Positions 6,895 through 58,330 of a DNA stretch of 64,000 bases are shown here, piece by piece. The notes below the pieces were generated by a model that was given only the letters and a program-made list of their open reading frames with translations, made no database searches and was not told the DNA's origin. Made by a program: the position numbers and the translations under genes. The stretch's first letter is position 1; each line of letters opens with the position of its first letter. The stretch covers positions 37,081,912 to 37,145,911 of the forward strand of contig OZ018327.1 in the NCBI GenBank assembly GCA_963969495.1. Reading direction: 5' to 3'. The DNA comes from Ceratothoa steindachneri. Its lineage: Eukaryota; Arthropoda; Malacostraca; Isopoda; Cymothoidae.

Positions 6895-7065
6895 TTACAA
6901 CCCAACTTAACCTAACTTAACTTAATTTAACAACGTAACCCAATCTAACTTAACCTAACCCAACCTAATTTACCTGGCGTACCCTAACTTAACCTAATCG
7001 GACAACGTAACCCAACCTAACTTAACCTAATCCAATAACCTGACCTAATCTAACCCAACCTATTA
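6895..7065. repeat. Degenerate CCTAA/CTTAA-type repeat tract
   Basis: Irregular runs of AACCTAACTTAACC and CCCAACCTAA resemble diverged arthropod telomere-type TTAGG repeats on this strand, with no strict period. They could be interstitial telomere-like DNA or the inside of a MITE such as that at 5040-5402. Confidence 0.6.
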
Positions 7066-8337
7066 ATAAATTACTTTACTTTGTCGATTTTTACTTTCAT
7101 ATTTCCTGTTTCGCTTTAAAAACAATATGTCTAGCTAGACTCGAAAGTGATAGAGGATATTAAGCCCTTTAAATATAAGTATGATTAATTAAAGTATCAA
7201 AACCAAAATAATCCCCTTACAGTATTTTATTTTTATATTTAGAGGTCACTATGTCGATCCGTAGTTTAGTCGGTCGGATGGTCACCGTTTTACATTTAAA
7301 TGGGTTTTTCTGCAATAACATCGTAACTATTCGGCCGATTCTAATGAAATTTGAAAATCGTATGTTGTTTTAAATTCTCTTTTGAATGCTTAATAATTGC
7401 CAAGGTCCCCCCAAGATTAGTCCGGGAACTATTAAAAAAAAAAACTGGGTCGGATTGCCCCACTTGTTGAAGGTTTTGAAGGTCATAGGTCAGAATAATT
7501 GAGAGCACGCGACTTAGGTCTGTTGTCTTTGTTTTTAAATAAAGGCAAAAACCAACGAAAGCGTCAAAGTTTTTAAAATGTTTAAAAAGGGATGAAATTA
7601 GGGCGAAAGAAAACAGGCGGGAGGTAGCCCGAGTTGGGTCATAGGGCACACGGGGTGCACAACTCTCGAACTTGCCTTTGGTCCGCACTGTAGGCAGGCC
7701 CGCTTATGGGAAGGGGGCTACAGTGATCGATCACCCGATACAGTGATGTCCCGCATCAACGCCAGTGAGTATCGCACGCGAATGATCGAGAGCAGAAACC
7801 TTTGAATCACGTCCTCGGTAACGAGGCGAGGGATTTGTAAACAATCAGTATTTCACAATTTTCTCACTCCTTTTAAACCATTTTTACACCTTAGCATCAA
7901 CAACATTCGGTTTTACTCTTTACCTACGACTTGTTTACGTGAATTTGGCCTAATCGTGTCAGTGTGGAGTTGTGTCAGATGTTCGAAAAAGTTCGTGTGG
8001 TTTACGATGCATTTTGATGCAGCAGATTGCCATGCCCCTTACTTTACCACTAATGTAATCTAACAAATTGAGAGTGGATTTAATTTATTATACAATTTCA
8101 TCGTCATTAATCCCTTTCGGTTGTCCTACAGGACGTGCATCGTCAAATAGTTTATTTGGATTTGAAAGCTTTTACCCTCTATGAATATTGCGTTCATTAG
8201 CTTCCGCCCACCAGATGGCGCATATATCGTAATGGCCGTTAGTTAAGCTAGCCTTGCCTAATGATAGCATCTTTGATAAATTTTGCTTTAAAAAAAATGG
8301 ATTATAAAAGCAAATGCCAATTTTTCCAAAACAAAAA
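7066..8337. other. No feature recognised
   Basis: AT-rich sequence without convincing coding content. A 115-codon open frame on the minus strand at 7341-7688 shows no family features. Confidence 0.3.
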
Positions 8338-13112: not shown

Positions 13113-15190
13113 ATGCCTATGTATGAACACCTAAAAAAAACCCAACCCTCAACTTCCTCTGTAACAACAACGGAGCCGCCCTCGGGCAGCTCCAGCGAAA
13201 AAATGGAGGTCCTCCCCCTTGTGCTTGCGCAGGGGACCCTCCACACTTCTCTAACCAGAAAGGAGGCTTACTCCTCTCATACGCTTACGGGTGAAGGGGA
13301 CTCCCCCTCACCCCCTTCTCTGGAGGTGCTTTCGGGCACCTCCCTATTTCCAGCGGCAGTCCCTCCTTTTCTTTGTAAGGGGACTGCCAAGAAAGCCAGC
13401 AGGCAGCCCATTGCCGACCGCCCCTCGTGTAAGCGGCTCGGTAGGGCAAACCCCCTTAGGGGGGAGAGGGAAGCCAGGTCCCTTGGGTCGCTTCCCTCAA
13501 AAGACTTGCTCTCAAGAATCTTAAACCTTGCCGGGGTCAAGGCCTGTGCCTCCCCACAAAAGACTGGTGACGCTGCCAAGGGGACCTGCCATGTCCTGGG
13601 GGGGGGGGGGGGTAGCCAACTGGAGGCCCCTCCTGTGATAGGCATGGTCCTTGAGGAAACCCAGCCTCAGATGATAGGGCCTTCCATGGATGGGAATCCG
13701 GGCTCGGCGCCAAGCACCGAACCCGAATCCGCCCCTATGCAAGGTCCTCCTCAAACGGCTGGGGCCTCCGTGCAGTACAAGGAGGGAAGGGATCTCCTCT
13801 GACCGGTGCCCCTGTGATCACCAGGACCTTTTCCATTTCGGAGAAGGACCTGGCTGAGGCCGGTCCATCTGGCCTAGGGGCTTCTGTCGGCGGAGGTGAG
13901 AAGCGGGTTCATCCCCCGCCCTCCTAAAAAGAAGAAAAAGACGAAAGACTAAAAAGACTCGGGGCTCCTCTCCATCCGTGGAGGCTACGGGGACGGATGG
14001 GTCTGCTGCCACTGGCAAGCGACCAAGCCAAGATCGGCACATCCGGCCCCTTTGCCCCCCCCCGGGTGCGGAGCCCCTGACTATGACAAAGACGAAAAGT
14101 GCACAGGGCGGAGCCTCGATGACATCAGGGCCCCTCATTCAGAGGTTACCTGGCGTTTTCGAGCCCGCTGGCTTCAAACGCTTCCTCGTTATTCGCTCCA
14201 CTGATGGCAGCATGTTGGCCAAGGGCAACATGATCCATCAGAGGAGAGGATTAGCTAGTGCAATTGGTAGAGAGCCGTAGGTGACCCGTTTCTCGGACGG
14301 GAGCCTTCTAGCGAATGCGGCGAATTCTGCCGAAGCGGCCAAGATAAGTGCTCTTCGGACACTTCATGGCACCCCGGTGAGTGTGACGCCGCACTCTACC
14401 ATGAACTTTGTGTAAAGAGTAGTTTATGCGAGGGAACTCGTTGACTACTCCATTGAGGACATCACCCTAGAGCTGGCCGACCATCGGGCGGTCAAGGTCG
14501 AACGTGTGATGAGAAAACAGGGAGGGGCCTCGAGACCCACCCCTACACTCTTCGTCATGTTCGACTGTGACAAGCTCCCTGAGTCGGTGCGTGCCGGTTG
14601 GTACCGCTACCGCGTGAAGGCATTAGTGCCACTGCCGCGGTGGTGCTATTACTGTCACCGCTTCGGCCATACGAATCGTTATGGTAGACGTGCAAAGTCG
14701 GGGTCACCTGAAGTTTGTGTAAATTGCTCCAAGGCCGCACACGATAAGTCCAAATCGTGTGTGGCCAAGTGTGTCAATTGCGGAGAGCCGCACCCCGCTT
14801 CTTCGAAGCAATATGGTGCATATATCCTTAAGAAAGAAATCCTGGCCGTTCAGTCCCAGGATCGACTCATTCCACGAGGCTAAGGACTTGGTCCTGGCGC
14901 GCCCGGCTCTGCCTGGGACGTTATATGCCTCAATAGTTAGAAAGGCACCCTCTGCTCCTGGCCCATCCAGGCCAACGAGCACGGTTGTTTCCGCGCCCAT
15001 TCGGAGCCCTTCTGCGGGCTCTACTCAACCCGGGCGCTACCCTGGTAAAGCTGGCGGCAAAAATGGTTCACCCCAAGCCCCGGCTAAAACCAGGGCTCCC
15101 CCCTCTTCCCACAGCGTGACCGTTTCCCGTAAGGTGAAACGGCCACGCGCCTCTACCGAGTCGTTAGACTCACAGGAGGCAACACCCTAG
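13113..15190 (+). pseudogene. LINE ORF1 (gag-like, CCHC zinc knuckles)
   Basis: The gag-like protein of the I-type LINE would bind element RNA. The N-terminal part (13113-13802) is Pro/Ser/Gly-rich and of low complexity. The conserved core is in frame 1: FEPAGFKRFLVIRSTDGS near 14160, then ELVDYSIEDITLELADHRAV near 14440, then zinc knuckles. Frame 1 is broken by TAG at 14278 and TAA at 14413. The first knuckle, CYYCHRFGHTNRYG (about 14644), has Gly where the fourth Cys should be. The second, CVNCSKAAHDKSKSC, is intact. The third, CVNCGEPHPASSKQY, ends in Tyr instead of Cys. A frameshift near 14860-14880 moves coding to frame 2 (SFHEAKDLVLARPALPG), which runs Pro/Arg-rich to a TAG at 15188. 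The start at 13113 is the first ATG of the open N-terminal frame and is uncertain. Confidence 0.75.
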
Positions 15191-15499
15191 AAGATGGTCG
15201 CTAGGCCATCTTCCGGGGTTCCTAAAGCTGTCCCCCGAAAGGAGGACAGCAACAAAGAAGCTTCGGCCCCGAGGTGGAGCGAGTGGCTCGGAGACGGTGG
15301 TTCCTCGAAAAGAGGGCCTCCCCGCATCCGAAGCCGCAACGCCCGCCTAAGGTTTCGAGGCGGTGGGAGGAAAAGATTCGCATGGCGAGCCCAACCTCCC
15401 CCAATAAGTCCTCGAAGGCGACAGCGCCTTCAGCGCTTTGTCCGTCCAACAGCGCCCGGGAAGCGTACGGCGATCTCCGTGAGGGTCTTCAGTTCGAGG

Positions 15500-18400
15500 A
15501 GGGCCCCCGCGTCTCCTCCGAGGTATTCTCTGATTTCTGCGTACATTCCACCGTCAGCTGACTTCGACACGGCGGACTTCCGCCGCGTGGTGGCATGGTT
15601 GCCGAGGCCCTATCTTTTGCTTGGAGATCTGAACGGCAGGCATCCTCTCTGGGGAGATTACTCCATAAATCCCAGGGGACAAGTCCTTGCCGATCTGATC
15701 GAAGAGCTTGAGATGGGTGTCCTAAACGTGGATGAGTTTACCTATCACTGTCGAGAACCGCTTCATTTTCTTGCCTCGACCTATCTTTGTGCTCTTCAAA
15801 TGCACAGCCTGATTTTGATTGGGGGGTGGTCGATGACCTCCATTGTAGTGATCACTTTCCCATTCAAATATCATTTTCAGGGCAACTGCCGCCTGAGAGC
15901 CCACCTCGGTGGTGCTTGGCGCGGGCGCGGTGGCCTGCATTTCAGGAAATGACTGAATTCTCTATCTCAGTTGAAGAGTTTAGGTCGGTAGATTAGGCCG
16001 TTGAGTTCTCCGGCAACCTCATCGCCGTGGGCCTGATTACTGTTCCTAGGACGTCTGACCGTTTTGCACGCCGACCACTCCCATGGTGGTCGGCCGAGTG
16101 TGAGACGGCCCTCAAACAGAAGCGTTATGCCTACATGCGCTATAAGCGCCGCCCGAACGATTTCACTGTCGCTGAATTTCGTCGGGCTAGGGCTAGGTTC
16201 CGGTATATTTCGAAGCACGCCCGCCGCTCTTATTGGCGTGATGCGTGTCTTCATTTAACGGGAAGGCCCCTTTAGCTGAGGTGTGGAAGCCAGTCAAAAG
16301 GATACGGGGCAAGTTCTCGCAGGCCCCTCAACCCGTTCTCCAGGAGAATGGGACCGCAATCTCGGACCCCGCTTCCGTGGCGGAATCCTTACCGACCGCT
16401 TTTTCCGCATTCTCTAGCCGGGATGATGCTCGGCCAGCATTCAATGCACGTCGTCATGTCGCGGAAGGCCGCCGACTGGACTTCACCTCCAGAGGCGGAG
16501 AACCCTTCAACGACAAGTTTACTGTGAGTGAGTGTCGCTCCGCTCTCGCTTCGTGCGCAGACACCGCCCATGGTCCGGACGATGTCCCCCCATACGCCAT
16601 GCTTCGACACCTGGGTGAGCGAGGCATGACATTTCTGTTAGATTTGTTAAACAGGATCTGGGTGGAAAGTCTTCTCCCAGACTCCTGGCGAATCGCTACT
16701 GTGCTCGCCTTTCGCAAACTAGGGAGAGATCACTCTACTCCGACCGGTTTCCGCCCAATCTCTCTAACCTCTTGCGTGTGCAAGTTGATGGAGAAATTGG
16801 TAAATGTTAGATTAGCCTTTTTCCTGGACAGCGGAGGCCATCTGTCTTACGCACAGTGCGGCTTCCGCAAGTTCCACTCCACGTCGGATGCTCTGCTCTG
16901 GCTGGAAAATGCCGTCTGCGAGGCTTTCCTTCGCAGACAGCACTACGCCACGGTGTTTTTTGATCTGGAGAAGGCCTATGATACCGCATAGCGATACGGT
17001 ATCATGGAGACTTTCCACACGATGGGTGCGAGGGGACGCCTCCCAATGTTTATATCTGAAAATTTGGAGATCGTCGATTCCGCGTACGGGTGGGGGGAGC
17101 CCTCTCTGGCACAATGGAGCAAGAAGAGGGTGTCCTGCAAGGAAGTGCCATCAGTGTCACACACTTTGCCCTGAGTATTAATGGCATCACTTCGGTGCTG
17201 CCGGAAAATGTTCTCGCTACGCTCTACGTGGACGACCTTTCGATCTCTTTTGGCGCGGCCCAGTTTCCAACTCTGGAGCGTCGACTCCAACAGGCATTTA
17301 ACCGCGTCTCTCGCTATGCCGAAGCGCACAGATTTCGGTTTTCTTTGGCTAAGACTAAGGTGGTGCACTTCTGCCGCCATCCACGGCTTCACCCCGACCC
17401 AGATTTGTTTCTTAATGGGGTGCGCCTGGATGTGATGGAATCGCACCGTTTCCTCGGTCTTGTATTCGACCGACGCCTTACCTGAGAGGCTCATATTCGC
17501 AGCTTTAGGGTCTCTTGTACCCGCGCCATGGACATTCTTTGTTTCCTGACGTTCAGCGCCTGGGGCGCTGATAGGGCTATTTTGTTCTCGATCCTTTGTT
17601 CGTCCGAAGCTCGACTATGGATGCGAGTTTTATGCATCCGCAGCCGAGCGTTTATTGCGGAAGGTGGATTCGATCCACCACACCGGCCTTCGCCTTGCGA
17701 CCAGTGCCTTCCGCACTTCCCCCATTGAGAGCCTGCTGGTCGATGCTGGGGAGATGCTTTGTCGCCACGCCTCTGCTCCCAAAGCTTGTACGGCGCCGGG
17801 AGTATTGCGTTCGACCTTTTTGGAGCACACATCGTGTCACGCTGGAACCGTGCCAGTGTATACGGATGGCTCCAAGTCCCAAGAGGGGGTCGGCTTCCAC
17901 GCCGTGTCCCCTCTGTTTGAAGTCAGCGGGGCTCTACCAGGCGCTGCGTCTGTCTTCACGGCCGAGCTGGTGGCAATACGCCACTCGGTACGGGAGATTA
18001 CGCGACGTACCCGGTTCGGAGACCGGATTGTGATCTATAGCGACTCACAAAGCGCCCTGAGTGCTCTCGGGGCATTGGAATATCCGCATCCCCTGGTTCG
18101 CGATATCCTTTACGCCACGGTTTTGGCGAGCCGGGCAGATGTCGAGATTATCTTCTGCTGGGTTCCTGGACATGTAGGAATTGCGGGGAATGAGCGCGCC
18201 AAAGAGTCCGCAAGGACTCTGCGACTGGACCAGCGTTTCGCTCTTCCTCACACCGACTACAAGGCAGGAATACGGGCAGCTCTTCGGACTGCTTGGCAAA
18301 GAAGATGTGAGACGGTCGAAGGGAACTTAAAGTTGCGTGCCATTGCGCCGGGACTGTTCCCATGGACCTATCCCCCAATGCCGCGGTGGCTTCAAGTTGT

Positions 18401-18629
18401 TTTATGTCGTCTCCGAATCGGACACACTCGTGTGACGCATCACTATTTGATGGAGCGCTCCTTTGTGCCATATAGCGACGACTGCGTCGTCCCCCAGACT
18501 GTTAGGCACATTCTTGTCGAATTTCCCAGTCTGGGTGAGCTCCGCGCACGATTCCTTTCCCGGTACCGGGATGGGCGGGGTCGCTACCGCCTGTCCCTTG
18601 TACTCGGGACGGATTCGTGGACTCGTTGA
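15500..18629 (+). pseudogene. LINE ORF2: endonuclease, RT, RNase H
   Basis: This polyprotein would nick target DNA and copy the element. Endonuclease: SLISAYIPPSADFD near 15530, LLLGDLNGRHPLWGDY near 15617, then SDHFPIQIS near 15850 after a frameshift. The N-terminal third of the nuclease domain appears deleted. RT: HGPDDVPPYAM near 16570, STPTGFRPISLTSCVCKLME near 16735, VFFDLEKAYD near 16960 and the YVDD box near 17227. A stop at 16989 interrupts the segment just after the first catalytic Asp, and another at 17483 follows FDRRLT. RNase H, frame 3 to 18629: VYTDGS, AELVAI, IYSDSQSA and WVPGHVGIAGNERAK. The first three acidic residues remain, but the last Asp of the usual NERAD is Lys. The frames used are 2, 1, 1, 3, 2 and 3, so five or so indels separate it from a working gene. 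Confidence 0.85.
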
Positions 18630-34425: not shown

Positions 34426-34785
34426 GTATGTGAGAATGTTTGAGCGTAGAATAGAGGAAATAAATAAAAGTATAGAGATAGAGTAAATGTGCAACAAATT
34501 TAATGGAGTGGTATTAGGTGGTGCAAGGGCTGTGAGTGGATGTTCCAGAACTAGAAAGAAAAATCAAAATGTTCAATGGTGGAATGACAAGATGAAGTTT
34601 GCCGTGGAAAGCAAAGAGGTGGCGTTGTTACAAATGTTTAATAGTGTTGATGAGGATGACAAAGAAATGAGATTGAATGCATACAAAAGACGATGACTAA
34701 GTGAAACTAGCAATTAAGCAGAGTAGGAAAGCAGTAAATGAAGCAATTGGGCAAAAGAAGAATGAGGATGCGGATGGAGCAGGAA

Positions 34786-36200
34786 AAGGAATGAGGATCC
34801 AGATGAGAACAGGAAGATGAATGAGGATCCAGATGGGAACAGGAAGATGAATGAGAATCCAGATGGTAACATGAAGATGAATGATGACCCAGATGGAAAC
34901 GGGAAGATGAATGAGGATCCAGATGAGAACAGGAATATGAAAGAGAATCCATATAGGAACAAGAATATGAATGGGGATCTAAATGGGAACTGGAAGACGA
35001 ATGAGGATTCAGATGGGAACAGGAAGATGAATGGGGATCCAGATGGGAACAGGAAGATGAAAGAGGATCCAGATGACAACGTGAAGATGAAAGAGAATCC
35101 AGATGGAAACATGAAGTCAAATGAGGATCCAGAAGGGAACATGAAGATGAATGAAGATCCAGATGGGAACAGGAAGGTGCATGATGATCCAGATGGGAAC
35201 ATGGATATGAATGAAGATCTATATGGTAACAGGAAGATACATGATGACCCAGATGTGAACGGGAAGATGAATAAGGATCCAGATGGGAACATGAAGATGA
35301 ATGAAGATCCAGATGGGAAGAGGAAGAGGAATGAGGATCTAGATGGTAACTTGAAGATGAATGATGCCACAGATGGGAGCATAAGATGAATGAGGATCCA
35401 GATGGTAACAGGAAGGTGAATGATGACCCAGTTGGAAACAAGATGAATAAAAATCCAGGTGGGAACAGGAAGATGCATGAGGATCCAGATGGAAACAGGA
35501 AGATGCATAGGACCGGAATATGAATGAAAATCCATATGAGAAGAAGAAGATGAATAAGGATCCGGATGGCAACATGAAGATTAATGATGACCTAGATGGG
35601 AACATGAATGATGATCTAGATGGAAACATGAAGATGAATGAGGATCCAGGATCCAGGAAGATGAATGATGACCCAGATTGAAACAAGAAGATAAATAAGG
35701 ATCCAGGTGGGAACAGGAAGATGCATGAGGATCCAGATGGGAAATGAAGATGAATGAGGATCCATATGATAAGAGGAAGATGAATGATGACCCAGATTGA
35801 AACAAGAAGATGAATAACGATCCAGGTGGGAACAGGAAGATGCATGAGGATCCAGATGAGAACAGGAAGATGAATGAGGATCCAAATGAGAATAGGAAGA
35901 TGAATGAGGATCCAGATGAGAACAGGAAGATGAATGAGGATCCAGATGGGAACAGGAAGATGAATGAGGATACATATCGGAACAAGAAGATGAATGAGAA
36001 TCCGTATGAGAACAGGAAGATGAACGAGGATCCAAATGGGAAGTGGAAACTGAATGATGACCCAGATCGGAACAGGAAGATGAATTAGGATCCTGATGAA
36101 AACAGGAAGTTGAATGATGATCTAGATGGAAACAAGAAGATGAACGAGGATCCAGGTGGGAACAGGAAGATGAATGAGGATCAGGATTGGAAGAGGAACA
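34786..36200 (+). repeat. 30-bp minisatellite grown from LINE codons
   Basis: About 47 copies of a 30-bp unit (GATCCAGATGGGAACAGGAA followed by GATGAATGAG) encode ten residues, DPDGNRKMNE, in one strand frame. The array sits in frame inside the LINE linker, between the WWND segment and LFWKEV. Variation among units is mostly single-base, with a few deletions near 35385, 35445, 35520 and 35740 that break the long frame. The minus-strand Ser/His/Phe-rich open frames here are artefacts. Confidence 0.92.
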
Positions 36201-36722
36201 TTATTCTGGAAGGAAGTGAGAAGGGTGAGGAACCAGAAAGAGAATAAAAGTGTGAACTTTAGGGGAACAAATGTCATGGTACTTGTTAGCAATGATGAGG
36301 TCAAAACTGTATGGCGATAAAAATATGGGTGAGTTGTATTCTTAATGTGGGTATGAAAGATGATGTAAATGTAAATATGATTGGCTTTGTGGACGTAAAT
36401 TGGTTGTTGTATCGGGGTATGGAAGAGATAAGTATGCAAAAGAACGTTGGTGCTGTGAGAAGTTGAAAAAATGCAAAGTCAGTAGGAGTAGATTATATTG
36501 TTGCTGAGATGCTAAAAAGTAGTGATGTCTGTGTTATGAAATGAGTTTGGTAGGTGTGTTGTAAGTATTAAAGTGCATGAATGTCTGAGGACTGGAATAG
36601 TATACTAATAGTGCCATTGTGTGAGGATAAAGGTGAGAAAGTTGAATACAAGAACTACAGGGAGGCGACATAGTCGAGTGTATATTAAAACATGGAAAAA
36701 TTCTGATTGGACGTATAAAAAA

Positions 36723-38964: not shown

Positions 38965-41030
38965 AGGTCTTTGTGGTAAAGACCAATGAGCTCTGGTTAG
39001 TGGTTAAAGACCAACGAGCTTTTGTTTGTGGTAAAGAACAACGACCTTTTGTTTTTGGCTAAAGACCAAGAGCATTTGTTTGTGGTAGAGACAAACGACC
39101 TTTTGTTTTTGGTTAAAGACCAACGAGCTCTTGTTTGTGGTTAAAAACCAACGATCTTTCGATAGGAGTTACAGACCAATGAGCTTTCGGTTGGGGTTGA
39201 AGACCAACAAACTTTTAGTTGTGATTAAAGACCAACGAGCTTATGTTTGTGGTAAAGAATAACGAGCTTTTGTTGGTGGTTAAATACCAACGAGCTTTCG
39301 GTTGAGGTTAAAGACCAACGAACTTTTGTTTGTTGAAGAACAACGAGCTTATGTTTGTGATAAATATTAACCAGCTTTTGTTGGTGGTTAAAGACCAATG
39401 AGCTTTCGGTTGGGGTTGAAGACCAACAAACTTTTAGTTGTGATTAAAGACCAACGAGCTTATGTTTGTGGTAAAGATTAACCAGCTTTTGTTGGTGGTT
39501 AAAGACCAATGAGCTTTTGTTTTTGGTTAAAGACTAACAAGCTTTTCTTTGTGGCAAATCTAACGAGCTTTTGTATGTAGTAAAGACTAACGAGCTTGCG
39601 TTTGTGGTAAATACCAACGGACTTTTATTTCTGGTAAAGCCCACGAGTTTTGTTTCTGGTAAGGACACACGAGCTTTTGTTTTGGGTAAAGACTAGCGAG
39701 CTTTTGTGGTAAATACCAACGAGCTTTCGGTTGTTTGTGGTAAAGGTCGATGAACTCTTGTATGTGGTAAATACTAACGAACTATTGTTTGTTGCAAAGA
39801 TCATCGAGCTTTTGTTTATGGTAAAGGCCAACGAGCTTTTGTTTGTGGTAAAGGCCAACGCGCTTTTGTTTGTGGTAAAGACTAACGAACTTTTGTTTGG
39901 GGTTAAAGACCAACGCGCTTCTGTTTGGGGTTAAAGACCAACGCGCTTTTTTGGGGGGGTTAAAGACCAACGCGCCTTTGTTTGGGGTTAAAGACCAACG
40001 CGCTTTTGTTTGGGATTAAAGACCAACGTGATTTTGTTTGGGGTTAAAGACCAACGCGCTTTAGTTTGGGGTTAAAGACCAACGAGCTTTTGTTTTGGGT
40101 AAAGACTAGCGAGCTTTTGTGGTAAATACCAACGAGCTTTCGGTTGTTTGTGGTAAAGGTCGATGAACTCTTGTATGTGGTAAATACTAACGAACTATTG
40201 TTTGTTGCAAAGATCATCGAGCTTTTGTTTATGGTAAAGGCCAACGAGCTTTTGTTTGTGGTAAAGGCCAACGCGCTTTTGTTTGTGGTAAAGACTAACG
40301 AACTTTTGTTTGGGGTTAAAGACCAACGCGCTTCTGTTTGGGGTTAAAGACCAACGCGCTTTTTTGGGGGGGTTAAAGACCAACGCGCCTTTGTTTGGGG
40401 TTAAAGACCAACGCGCTTTTGTTTGGGATTAAAGACCAACGTGATTTTGTTTGGGGTTAAAGACCAACGCGCTTTAGTTTGGGGTTAAAGACCAACGCGC
40501 TTTTGTTTGGGGTTAAAGACCAACGCGCTTTTGTTTGGGATTAAAGACCAACGCGCTTTTGTTTGGGGTTAAAGACCAACGCGCTTTTGTTTGGGGTTAA
40601 AGACCAACGCGCCTTTGTTTGGAGTTAAAGACCAATGCGCTTTTGTTTGGGGTTAAAGACCAACGCGCCTTTGTTTGGGGTTAAAGACCAACGCGCTTTT
40701 GTTTGGGATTAAAGACCAACGTGATTTTGTTTGGGGTTAAAGACCAACGCGCTTTAAGTTTGGGGTTAAAGACCAACGCGCTTTTGTTTGGGGTTAAAGA
40801 CCAACGCGCTTTTGTTTGGGATTAAAGACCAACGCGCCTTTGTTTGGAGTTAAAGACCAATGCGCTTTAGTTTGGGGTTAAAGACCAATGCGCTTTTGTT
40901 TGGGGTTAAAGACCAATGCGCTTTTGTTTGGGGTTAAAGACCAACGCGCTTTTGTTTGGGATTAAAGACCAACGCGCCTTTGTTTGGGGTTAAAGACCAA
41001 CGCGCCTTTGTTTGGAGTTAAAGACCAACG
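38965..41030. repeat. 28-bp satellite with 413-bp higher-order repeat
   Basis: About 74 units of GGTTAAAGACCAACGCGCTT followed by TTGTTTGG run for 2.07 kb. The left part (to about 39700) is diverged, with GAGC and TGTGGT variants. The right part is homogeneous, with CGCGC. A block of 413 bp is duplicated almost exactly (39672-40084 and 40085-40497). All open frames here (VGLYHKQKR-type repeats) are artefacts. Confidence 0.95.
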
Positions 41031-52883: not shown

Positions 52884-52923
52884 GAGACTAGTTTCAATAT
52901 GTAGTTGATCATACCCTCTTCAG
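52883..52923 (-). ncRNA. Hammerhead-ribozyme-like motif in PLE tail
   Basis: On the minus strand CTGAAGA is followed by a G, then a stem GTATG/CATAT with flanking G-U pairs, then GAAACTAGTC. CUGANGA and GAAA are both intact. It ends at a (TA)n array. Confidence 0.5.
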
Positions 52924-53702
52924 TCGTATACTGAGAATGCAATTGTTAAAAAAGTCTATAAATAGCATACAGATCAGAAAAAAACAAAAAGAAAAAAGAA
53001 AAAAAGGAGGAAACGGATCATTAATCAGGGGGTCTAAGTCTAAGTCTAACCTGTTTACGATGAGGTTACGGGACTGGAAGCGGCATTTCAATTGCCCATC
53101 TGATAAATTAAAATTGGGAATTTCTCCTATTAATATAGATTCTACTATTTTTCTTTTACGGAAAACTTTACAATTATCTATGATTTGTGCCTTTGAATAG
53201 TCAATTTGGTAGTTGAAATTGCTAATATGATTAAAAATACTGGATGTGGTACTGCCTCGTCTGACATCACCTTTATGTTCATAAATTCGTTTTGTTAAGG
53301 TTCTTCCGGTCTCTCCTATGTAAAATGAAGGACAGTTTGTAGAACCACACGGAATTAAATATACACCTGCTTCATTTGGCTGGTCCACGGGCTTGTTCGA
53401 TGGGAAAGATTTAAGGATAGAAAAAGGGTATTTAAATGTGGTTAGGCCTGAGAAATAACTTTGTTCCCTCCTTTGAGGAGGGAAGAAAAGGGGAGGGATA
53501 GGCACTTCGTATTACTAAATTTGTTTTTATCCTTGGGAAGGTAATGAGTAGATTTTGCTTTAGATAAACTTTCATTGATCACGTGGGGGGGATAATTTAA
53601 TTCAATGAAACTGCAGGTTATATATGTAATTTCAAAGGCACAAATCATAGATAATTGTAAAGTTTTCCGTAAAAGAAAATGAGTAGAATCTATATTAATT
53701 TG
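52883..53702 (-). mobile_element. PLE fragment with GIY-YIG and 5' inversion
   Basis: On the minus strand a frame ending at 52909 encodes NEAGVYLIPCGSTNCPSFYI and GETGRTLTKRIYEHKGDVRR, a PLE GIY-YIG nuclease with its Cys pair, G-x-T strand, Arg and His. It continues through SKAQIIDNCKVFRKRKIVES with the active-site glutamate to NFNLSDGQLKCRFQSRNLIV. Upstream, after a frameshift, 53634-53460 encodes the linker (ITCSFIELNYPPHVINESLS). At its 5' edge (53634-53702) sits an inverted copy of the element's own coding region 53130-53200. The tail ends with a hammerhead-like motif against a (TA)n array. The nuclease frame is intact but the RT is missing. Confidence 0.88.
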
Positions 53703-57599: not shown

Positions 57600-58330
57600 T
57601 CTCTGTTAAAGGCACAACATAGGTGCCGGAATTCCCCACCTACATCAACAACAAAGTAGCATCAAAACCACATATCTGCCTGTCGAACTTCAACCTGCAT
57701 TTAATTACCACTTAGAACCCCTGGACATATCAATTAGCGACTACATAGCAACCCTGTTAATAGTTAACCAGTTCCACATACAGAACCATTCAAAGGAATG
57801 AAGATCCTCTCATCAGGCAGACTGGACGAAATATAAAGCGATCCTAAGAGGATATGAACTGAAGAGCCTCAACGAAACGACACTAGAAGGAATTGATGAA
57901 GCGCTCAAGGAAATTAGAGAAACATTGATAAACGCAGACAATGAGACAATCTTAAAAAGAACTTACAGAACCATCCAGAACATGAGATGGTCACTTGAAA
58001 TGATTGATAAGAACGTGAAAATAAGAATTATTTCAGAACAGATACGTTAGATAGACCAAACAGAGAACTTACTATACGACGATCTTAAAAGGAAAAAGAA
58101 AGCGGTCTCGATATTGATTATTGAAAAACACAATGAACAGTGGAACGATCTAATCCACAAGATAGACGAAGAAAGATCGTCGAAAGAGTTTTTGAAATGG
58201 GGGAACGGGATGAAAGACAAGCCAGCCAAGAAAAAAGTAGGAATTAAGGATGAAAGAGGAAACATACTGGAAGACGAAGCCGACCTTGAAAGAGTATTTA
58301 GAGAACAGTGGAAGAACGTTTTATGATCAG
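57600..58330 (+). pseudogene. LINE endonuclease end and linker
   Basis: About 57640-57780, with frameshifts, encodes SKPHICLSNFNLHL and SDYIATLLIV, decayed from the (S/R)PDIxLSN and SDHxPI endonuclease motifs of Jockey-like non-LTR elements. Next come linker sequences: SLNETTLEGIDEALKEIRET near 57870, NMRWSLEMIDKNVKIRII near 57980, and an open frame 58114-58326 with IIEKHNEQWNDLIHKIDEER and VGIKDERGNILEDEADLERV. The latter is the helix-rich stretch before RT motif 0. The RT itself is replaced by a PLE insertion at 58361. An in-frame stop at 58048 and other shifts show it is dead. Confidence 0.7.

Follow-up and report, generated by a model that had tools for sequence, protein, structure and literature searches.

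A minisatellite inside a decayed LINE of the isopod Ceratothoa steindachneri, probably born from the linker codons of the element

Results

A 30-bp tandem array between two parts of a LINE remnant

The window analysed here is a whole stretch of 64,000 nucleotides of Ceratothoa steindachneri DNA (contig OZ018327.1). On its forward strand, a tandem array sits between two parts of what reads as a decayed, incomplete LINE. The features of the locus are the following.

34499..34693, + strand: LINE remnant, WWND segment of the linker (scores 88 against P0043, its best local match)
34701..34790, + strand: LINE remnant, linker VKLAIKQSRKAVNEAIGQKKNEDADG, which extends into the first array unit (profile positions 21-47, weak)
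34755..36201, + strand: tandem array of a 30-bp unit, KMNEDPDGNR (Tandem Repeats Finder; cyclic decomposition)
35413..35499, + strand: three-unit block, units 23-25 (variants common to three blocks, by eye; units 24 and 37 are 93% alike)
35658..35746, + strand: three-unit block, units 32-34 (units 32 and 36 identical; units 33 and 37 are 93% alike)
35777..35866, + strand: three-unit block, units 36-38 (variants common with units 23-25 and 32-34, by eye)
36201..36317, + strand: LINE remnant, LFWKEV segment, adjoining the array end (ORF 36174-36317, profile positions 49-88, E 1.2e-7)
36467..36541, + strand: LINE remnant, KNAKSVGVDYIVAEMLK segment, before the reverse transcriptase (profile positions 137-160, E 0.0048)
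36581..36670, + strand: LINE remnant, start of the reverse transcriptase, EDWNSILIVPLCEDKGEKVEYKNYR (profile positions 177-203, E 2.3e-5)

Tandem Repeats Finder (TRF) placed an array with a 30-bp period at 34755-36198 (48.1 copies, score 1312), and cyclic alignment placed it at 34755-36201 on the + strand, with 49 full units plus 5 bases and an alignment score of 1904. The agreement of the two methods confirms the 30-bp array inside LINE sequence that a preliminary description, made from the letters alone, had reported. The start given there, 34786, is near but misses the first unit, which is 29 bp long, and the estimate of about 47 copies comes close to the 49 units found. The consensus unit from the cyclic alignment is AAGATGAATGAGGATCCAGATGGGAACAGG, which encodes KMNEDPDGNR. 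Forty units are 30 bp long, four are 27 bp, three are 29 bp, and one each is 24 and 23 bp (n = 49), so that this one sequence has the head-to-tail units of 10-100 bp by which a minisatellite is recognized. Chance was judged by the TRF score rather than by a shuffled control; at 1312 against a threshold of 50, a chance origin of the tandem array is untenable. Substitution divergence from the consensus ranges from 0 to 21% with a mean of 11.8%, and units this divergent cannot be identical copies stuttered by the assembler.

The flanks were assigned by searching a profile of 21 related proteins with HMMER against the 2065 ORFs of 20 aa or more in the window. The matches are collinear on one strand, from position 21, weakly at first, to position 203, and the array lies at the join between the linker piece and the LFWKEV segment. 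The linker ORF, 34701-34817, stayed under the inclusion line of HMMER (E 0.051 among the 2065 window ORFs), and the linker piece matched P0112 with a score of 71 (60 shuffles, 35.3 ± 3.5, maximum 44). The WWND segment is unmatched by the 21-protein profile (0.2 bits) and is assigned through its match to P0043, for which 60 shuffles gave 45.1 ± 4.6 with a maximum of 58. The reverse transcriptase start scored 102 against P0066 (60 shuffles, 35.5 ± 3.9, maximum 48), and other downstream LINE pieces scored 74 against P0101 (shuffles 40.3 ± 4.2) and 59 against P0107 (33.8 ± 3.4). The linker and the reverse transcriptase start are thus homologous, in order, to the corresponding parts of relatives, as is characteristic of a non-LTR retrotransposon. 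The WWND segment upstream and LFWKEV directly downstream of the array are placed as previously described.

The element is heavily eroded. Stops are present in the array flanks, and downstream of 36670 near the LINE no profile match rose above the inclusion line. Only the start of the reverse transcriptase is left: a hand-joined 54-aa piece of it (one letter wrong) matched 0 Pfam families, and a PDB search with a reverse transcriptase piece gave no match up to E 10. PF00078 (RVT_1) is precomputed for part of the 120 relatives listed below. A protein search with a hand-joined 222-aa LINE query from the window returned 79 candidates, none at E ≤ 1. The element may belong to the RTE clade of LINEs, though too little reverse transcriptase is left for placement on a tree. 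Just downstream of the remnant, the motif GAACTTC[AG]CCA occurs three times (36839, 36964 and 37033) and nowhere else in the window; these copies may mark a further decayed repeat at which the LINE is cut short.

A single linker segment in related proteins

Relatives were collected with a 259-aa LINE query, which matched 879 proteins at E ≤ 0.001, of which 120 were listed and used. Only proteins 0.55-1.75 times the query length were taken, and long-array proteins were thereby excluded. The motif [FLMI][FWY]W[KRQ] is present in 30 of the 120 listed relatives; 21 of these, which we call linker-bearing, also have one more matching residue and at least 10 residues before the motif. All 21 carry a single segment of about ten residues at the place of the linker, two residues short in P0010. 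The preliminary description would have been refuted by other LINE copies lacking any single-unit equivalent at this position; checked on these relatives, it was not refuted. The array is absent from all 21, though the length rule would exclude large arrays, and its absence is therefore weaker evidence than it looks.

P0060 RKMNEDMNGNKKLFWKEVS and P0064 RKMNHEVNGNRKLFWKEVS each contain a single stretch of the KMNxDxxGNRKLFWKE type, so that the stretch earlier attributed to related elements does exist in database proteins. In the more distant linker-bearing relatives, the segment and the array unit have only 1-4 residues in common. We compared KMNEDPDGNR with the 24,733 ten-residue words of the 120 listed proteins, and the 11 best words all lie at the segment before the KLFW motif. 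Nine of them precede an intact [KE][LMF]FW and two a changed motif (P0089, KLFC; P0017, KLSW), the latter two proteins standing outside the 21 linker-bearing relatives, while the words ranked 12-14 lie elsewhere in their proteins. Within single proteins, the segment is the best match of the unit in 14 of the 21 relatives and ranks 2 to 20 in the other seven, which are more distant. The query itself contained the segment, which favours its presence among the matches, not the position of the unit's best match. The unit's own frame scores 43 at the segment, against 21-31 for the best of the other five frames anywhere in the 120 listed proteins, and none of 1000 shuffled units reached 42 (best, 41). 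With 11 of 11 best words at this place and collinear flanks, the unit is homologous to the segment expected there, as in a minisatellite derived from a transposable element.

Scans beyond these proteins gave no further relatives. Viral contigs scanned with a LINE peptide pattern gave 21 stretches that fit it, but tblastn showed none of these to be a relative, and two DNA patterns found nothing in the contigs. A unit-junction pattern matched twice in a prokaryote scan (L001 and L002, both contigs of metagenome-assembled genomes), with no repeat within 60 bases on either side, and these matches were set aside as chance.

Reading frame and substitution pattern of the array

Units 2-20 are each 30 bp long, encode KMNEDPDGNR-like peptides and share a single open frame, ORF 34766-35389, of 207 aa. 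Nine of the 49 units deviate from the 30-bp length (units 1, 21, 23, 26, 27, 29, 30, 31 and 34), and in four of these (1, 21, 26 and 34) the change is not divisible by 3, which introduces several frame shifts into the array. Stops in the unit's own frame occur in units 32, 36 and 46, all of 30 bp. The earlier claim that the array is in frame thus applies to its presumed birth and to units 2-20, but fails for later units, with their frame-breaking deletions and stops. The linker piece beginning at 34701 shares its frame with the LFWKEV segment at 36201, 1500 bp away; the WWND segment is read in a different one.

Compared with the consensus, the units carry 39 synonymous, 129 non-synonymous and 1 stop change, where 37.6, 126.8 and 4.6, respectively, are expected without selection under the observed base-change spectrum; the stop changes fall below expectation, though the numbers are small. 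Third codon positions are not significantly more variable than the others (permutation p 0.15). The evolution of the array looks neutral, and a coding role for it was rejected on the neutral substitutions, frame breaks and stops. As far as can be read from it, the array sequence reveals no function for element or host. With four frame-breaking units, stops, a neutral pattern and stops in the flanks, the locus also differs from a repeat region of the mouse L1 kind, in which repeats stand in frame in a working ORF.

Discussion

Probable birth and growth from linker codons

Very probably, the array is a minisatellite that began when ten codons of the LINE's linker were duplicated in tandem, and that grew at this locus. 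This is the origin that the preliminary description proposed, and its place, its frame and the single-copy state in relatives support it. The starting event would have been a tandem duplication of the ten codons between the FG(R/Q) and KLFWKEV motifs. Slippage or unequal exchange between short Arg-Lys-coding direct repeats at the segment ends (RK-MNEDxxGN-RK) may have produced it; of the two minisatellite models set out in PMC3389668, one has the array arise between direct repeats of 5-10 bp. The Arg-Lys direct repeat is drawn from the proteins of relatives, not from DNA. A basic residue pair stands at both segment ends in 8 of the 21 relatives, exactly RK...RK in four, and 13 are without it; the window today has GQ-K rather than GR-K at the upstream segment end.

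Further slippage or unequal exchange would then have brought the array to about 49 units, at this locus and in an element presumably free of coding constraint, and blocks of about three units may have been duplicated later. Adjacent units do not resemble each other more than units far apart do (lag 1, z = -0.3), a pattern that stepwise slippage at one end would not produce without later mixing or long decay. Unit similarity does not fall with distance over lags 1-15 (z between -2.3, at lag 14, and 3.2, at lag 8). A general higher-order period of 60 or 90 bp, hinted at by TRF, was rejected, as only lag 8 stands out over these lags and only 1 of 210 column pairs is linked after Bonferroni correction. 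Pairwise similarity averages about 0.797, compared to about 0.78 under independent decay from one master at 11.8%. Fast growth, followed by long independent decay with few later block copies, is the simplest history of the array.

Growth could also have taken place in an active LINE lineage and the array been copied with the element, giving a subfamily with a repeat-bearing linker. The uniform length and open frame of units 2-20 would suit such a history, and the 66/42-bp repeats of mouse L1 ORF1 are described as varying in number between families (PMC3600994). We nevertheless consider it unlikely. There is no trace of purifying selection between the array units, the insert, at about 480 residues, would be exceptionally long, and a protein search with the array ORF gave 108 candidates with none at E ≤ 10, although relatives may have been missed owing to low complexity and the length limit. 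The lack of an array in the 21 linker-bearing relatives points the same way, if weakly, given the length rule. That such a subfamily mobilises with a variable ten-codon linker repeat and seeds minisatellites across the genome strikes us as quite doubtful; were it so, the linker before the reverse transcriptase would tolerate large in-frame expansion.

An unrelated minisatellite might have come to lie beside the LINE pieces by chance, its likeness to the linker peptide being coincidental. Minisatellites are indeed common here, with nine arrays (periods of 10-100 and 5 or more copies, the present one among them) making up 8% of the window, but the unit peptide, its frame and its position all fit the LINE segment expected there, and we regard such a coincidence as very improbable. 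A coding exon, whether of a host gene or a domesticated one, is a reading to which we give hardly any credence, although the 207-aa reading frame of the early units might speak for it: the later units shift frame and contain stops, substitutions follow the neutral pattern, no Pfam family scored above its cut-off, and stops interrupt the flanks.

Relation to known repeats

With its probable origin in the LINE's own linker codons, the array clearly illustrates a process for which there is precedent in other genomes. Transposon-derived minisatellites are documented in PMC3389668 and PMC9659126, the former attributing 23% of human minisatellites and satellites to an origin inside transposable elements. 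The human survey, as described there, demanded at least 95% identity between units, whereas the units of the present array, which likewise lies inside a transposable element, are about 12% off their consensus. The length polymorphism region of mouse L1 ORF1 also consists of tandem repeats inside LINE coding sequence, but according to PMC3600994 it comprises few units, belongs to the family consensus and lies in the ORF1 coiled coil; the present array has 49 decayed units, in the linker before the reverse transcriptase of a broken copy. In Chenopodium, the source of satellite CficCl-61-40 is the tnp2 transposase domain of a CACTA-like element, Jozin (PMC7320549). That source reports a plant DNA transposon and the most abundant satellite family, whereas here the probable source is a LINE linker, and one array was seen. 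By title and abstract, none of the matches listed from the open-licence literature describes an array in this linker.

Once a minisatellite has grown, the sequence it started from is hard to recover; for this array it can be pinned to ten codons within a recognizable protein segment. With the start fixed and a single-copy state in relatives, the birth step, likely at a short Arg-Lys direct repeat, becomes testable by comparing copies. Beyond its start sequence, the array adds one more case of transposons feeding tandem repeats.

Other repeats in the window

The nine minisatellite arrays, hand-picked from the TRF output, lie within 21512-46026 and total 5125 bp, or 8% of the window, which suggests that minisatellites are often born in this genome. 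A larger one at 38970-41030 has 74.7 copies of a 28-bp unit, TTTGTGGTTAAAGACCAACGAGCTTTTG, whose length is not a multiple of 3. The genome of the decapod Pontastacus leptodactylus is similarly rich, with 24.7% minisatellites, for which the authors suggest polymerase slippage (PMC7859515); in its account of these repeats, that paper traces none to a LINE coding segment, in contrast to the array described here.

A second, better kept LINE occupies 14416-18629, with a zinc-knuckle-like ORF (by eye), RVT_1 (E 4.7e-11) and RNase H (E 1.7e-9). The top-scoring window ORF for the 21-protein profile, 16242-16988, falls within this span and thus outside the array-bearing remnant, and it has its own RVT_1. 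The profile also matched weakly at 58051-58323 (E 0.0097, with a bias of 4.7 of 11.7 bits). A weak LFWKEV-like match at 7594-7710 (E 0.019) was dropped after reading of three frames revealed no further LINE motif. On the reverse strand, a GIY-YIG domain at 52909-53511 scored 20 bits, just under the Pfam cut-off of 22.6, and we take this region to be a likely Penelope-like element. Finally, TRF found a degenerate AACCT (TTAGG-type) tandem repeat at 6899-7062, which together with the LINE family would point to an arthropod host, AACCT-like motifs being described as the telomere motif of arthropods (PMC3124438).
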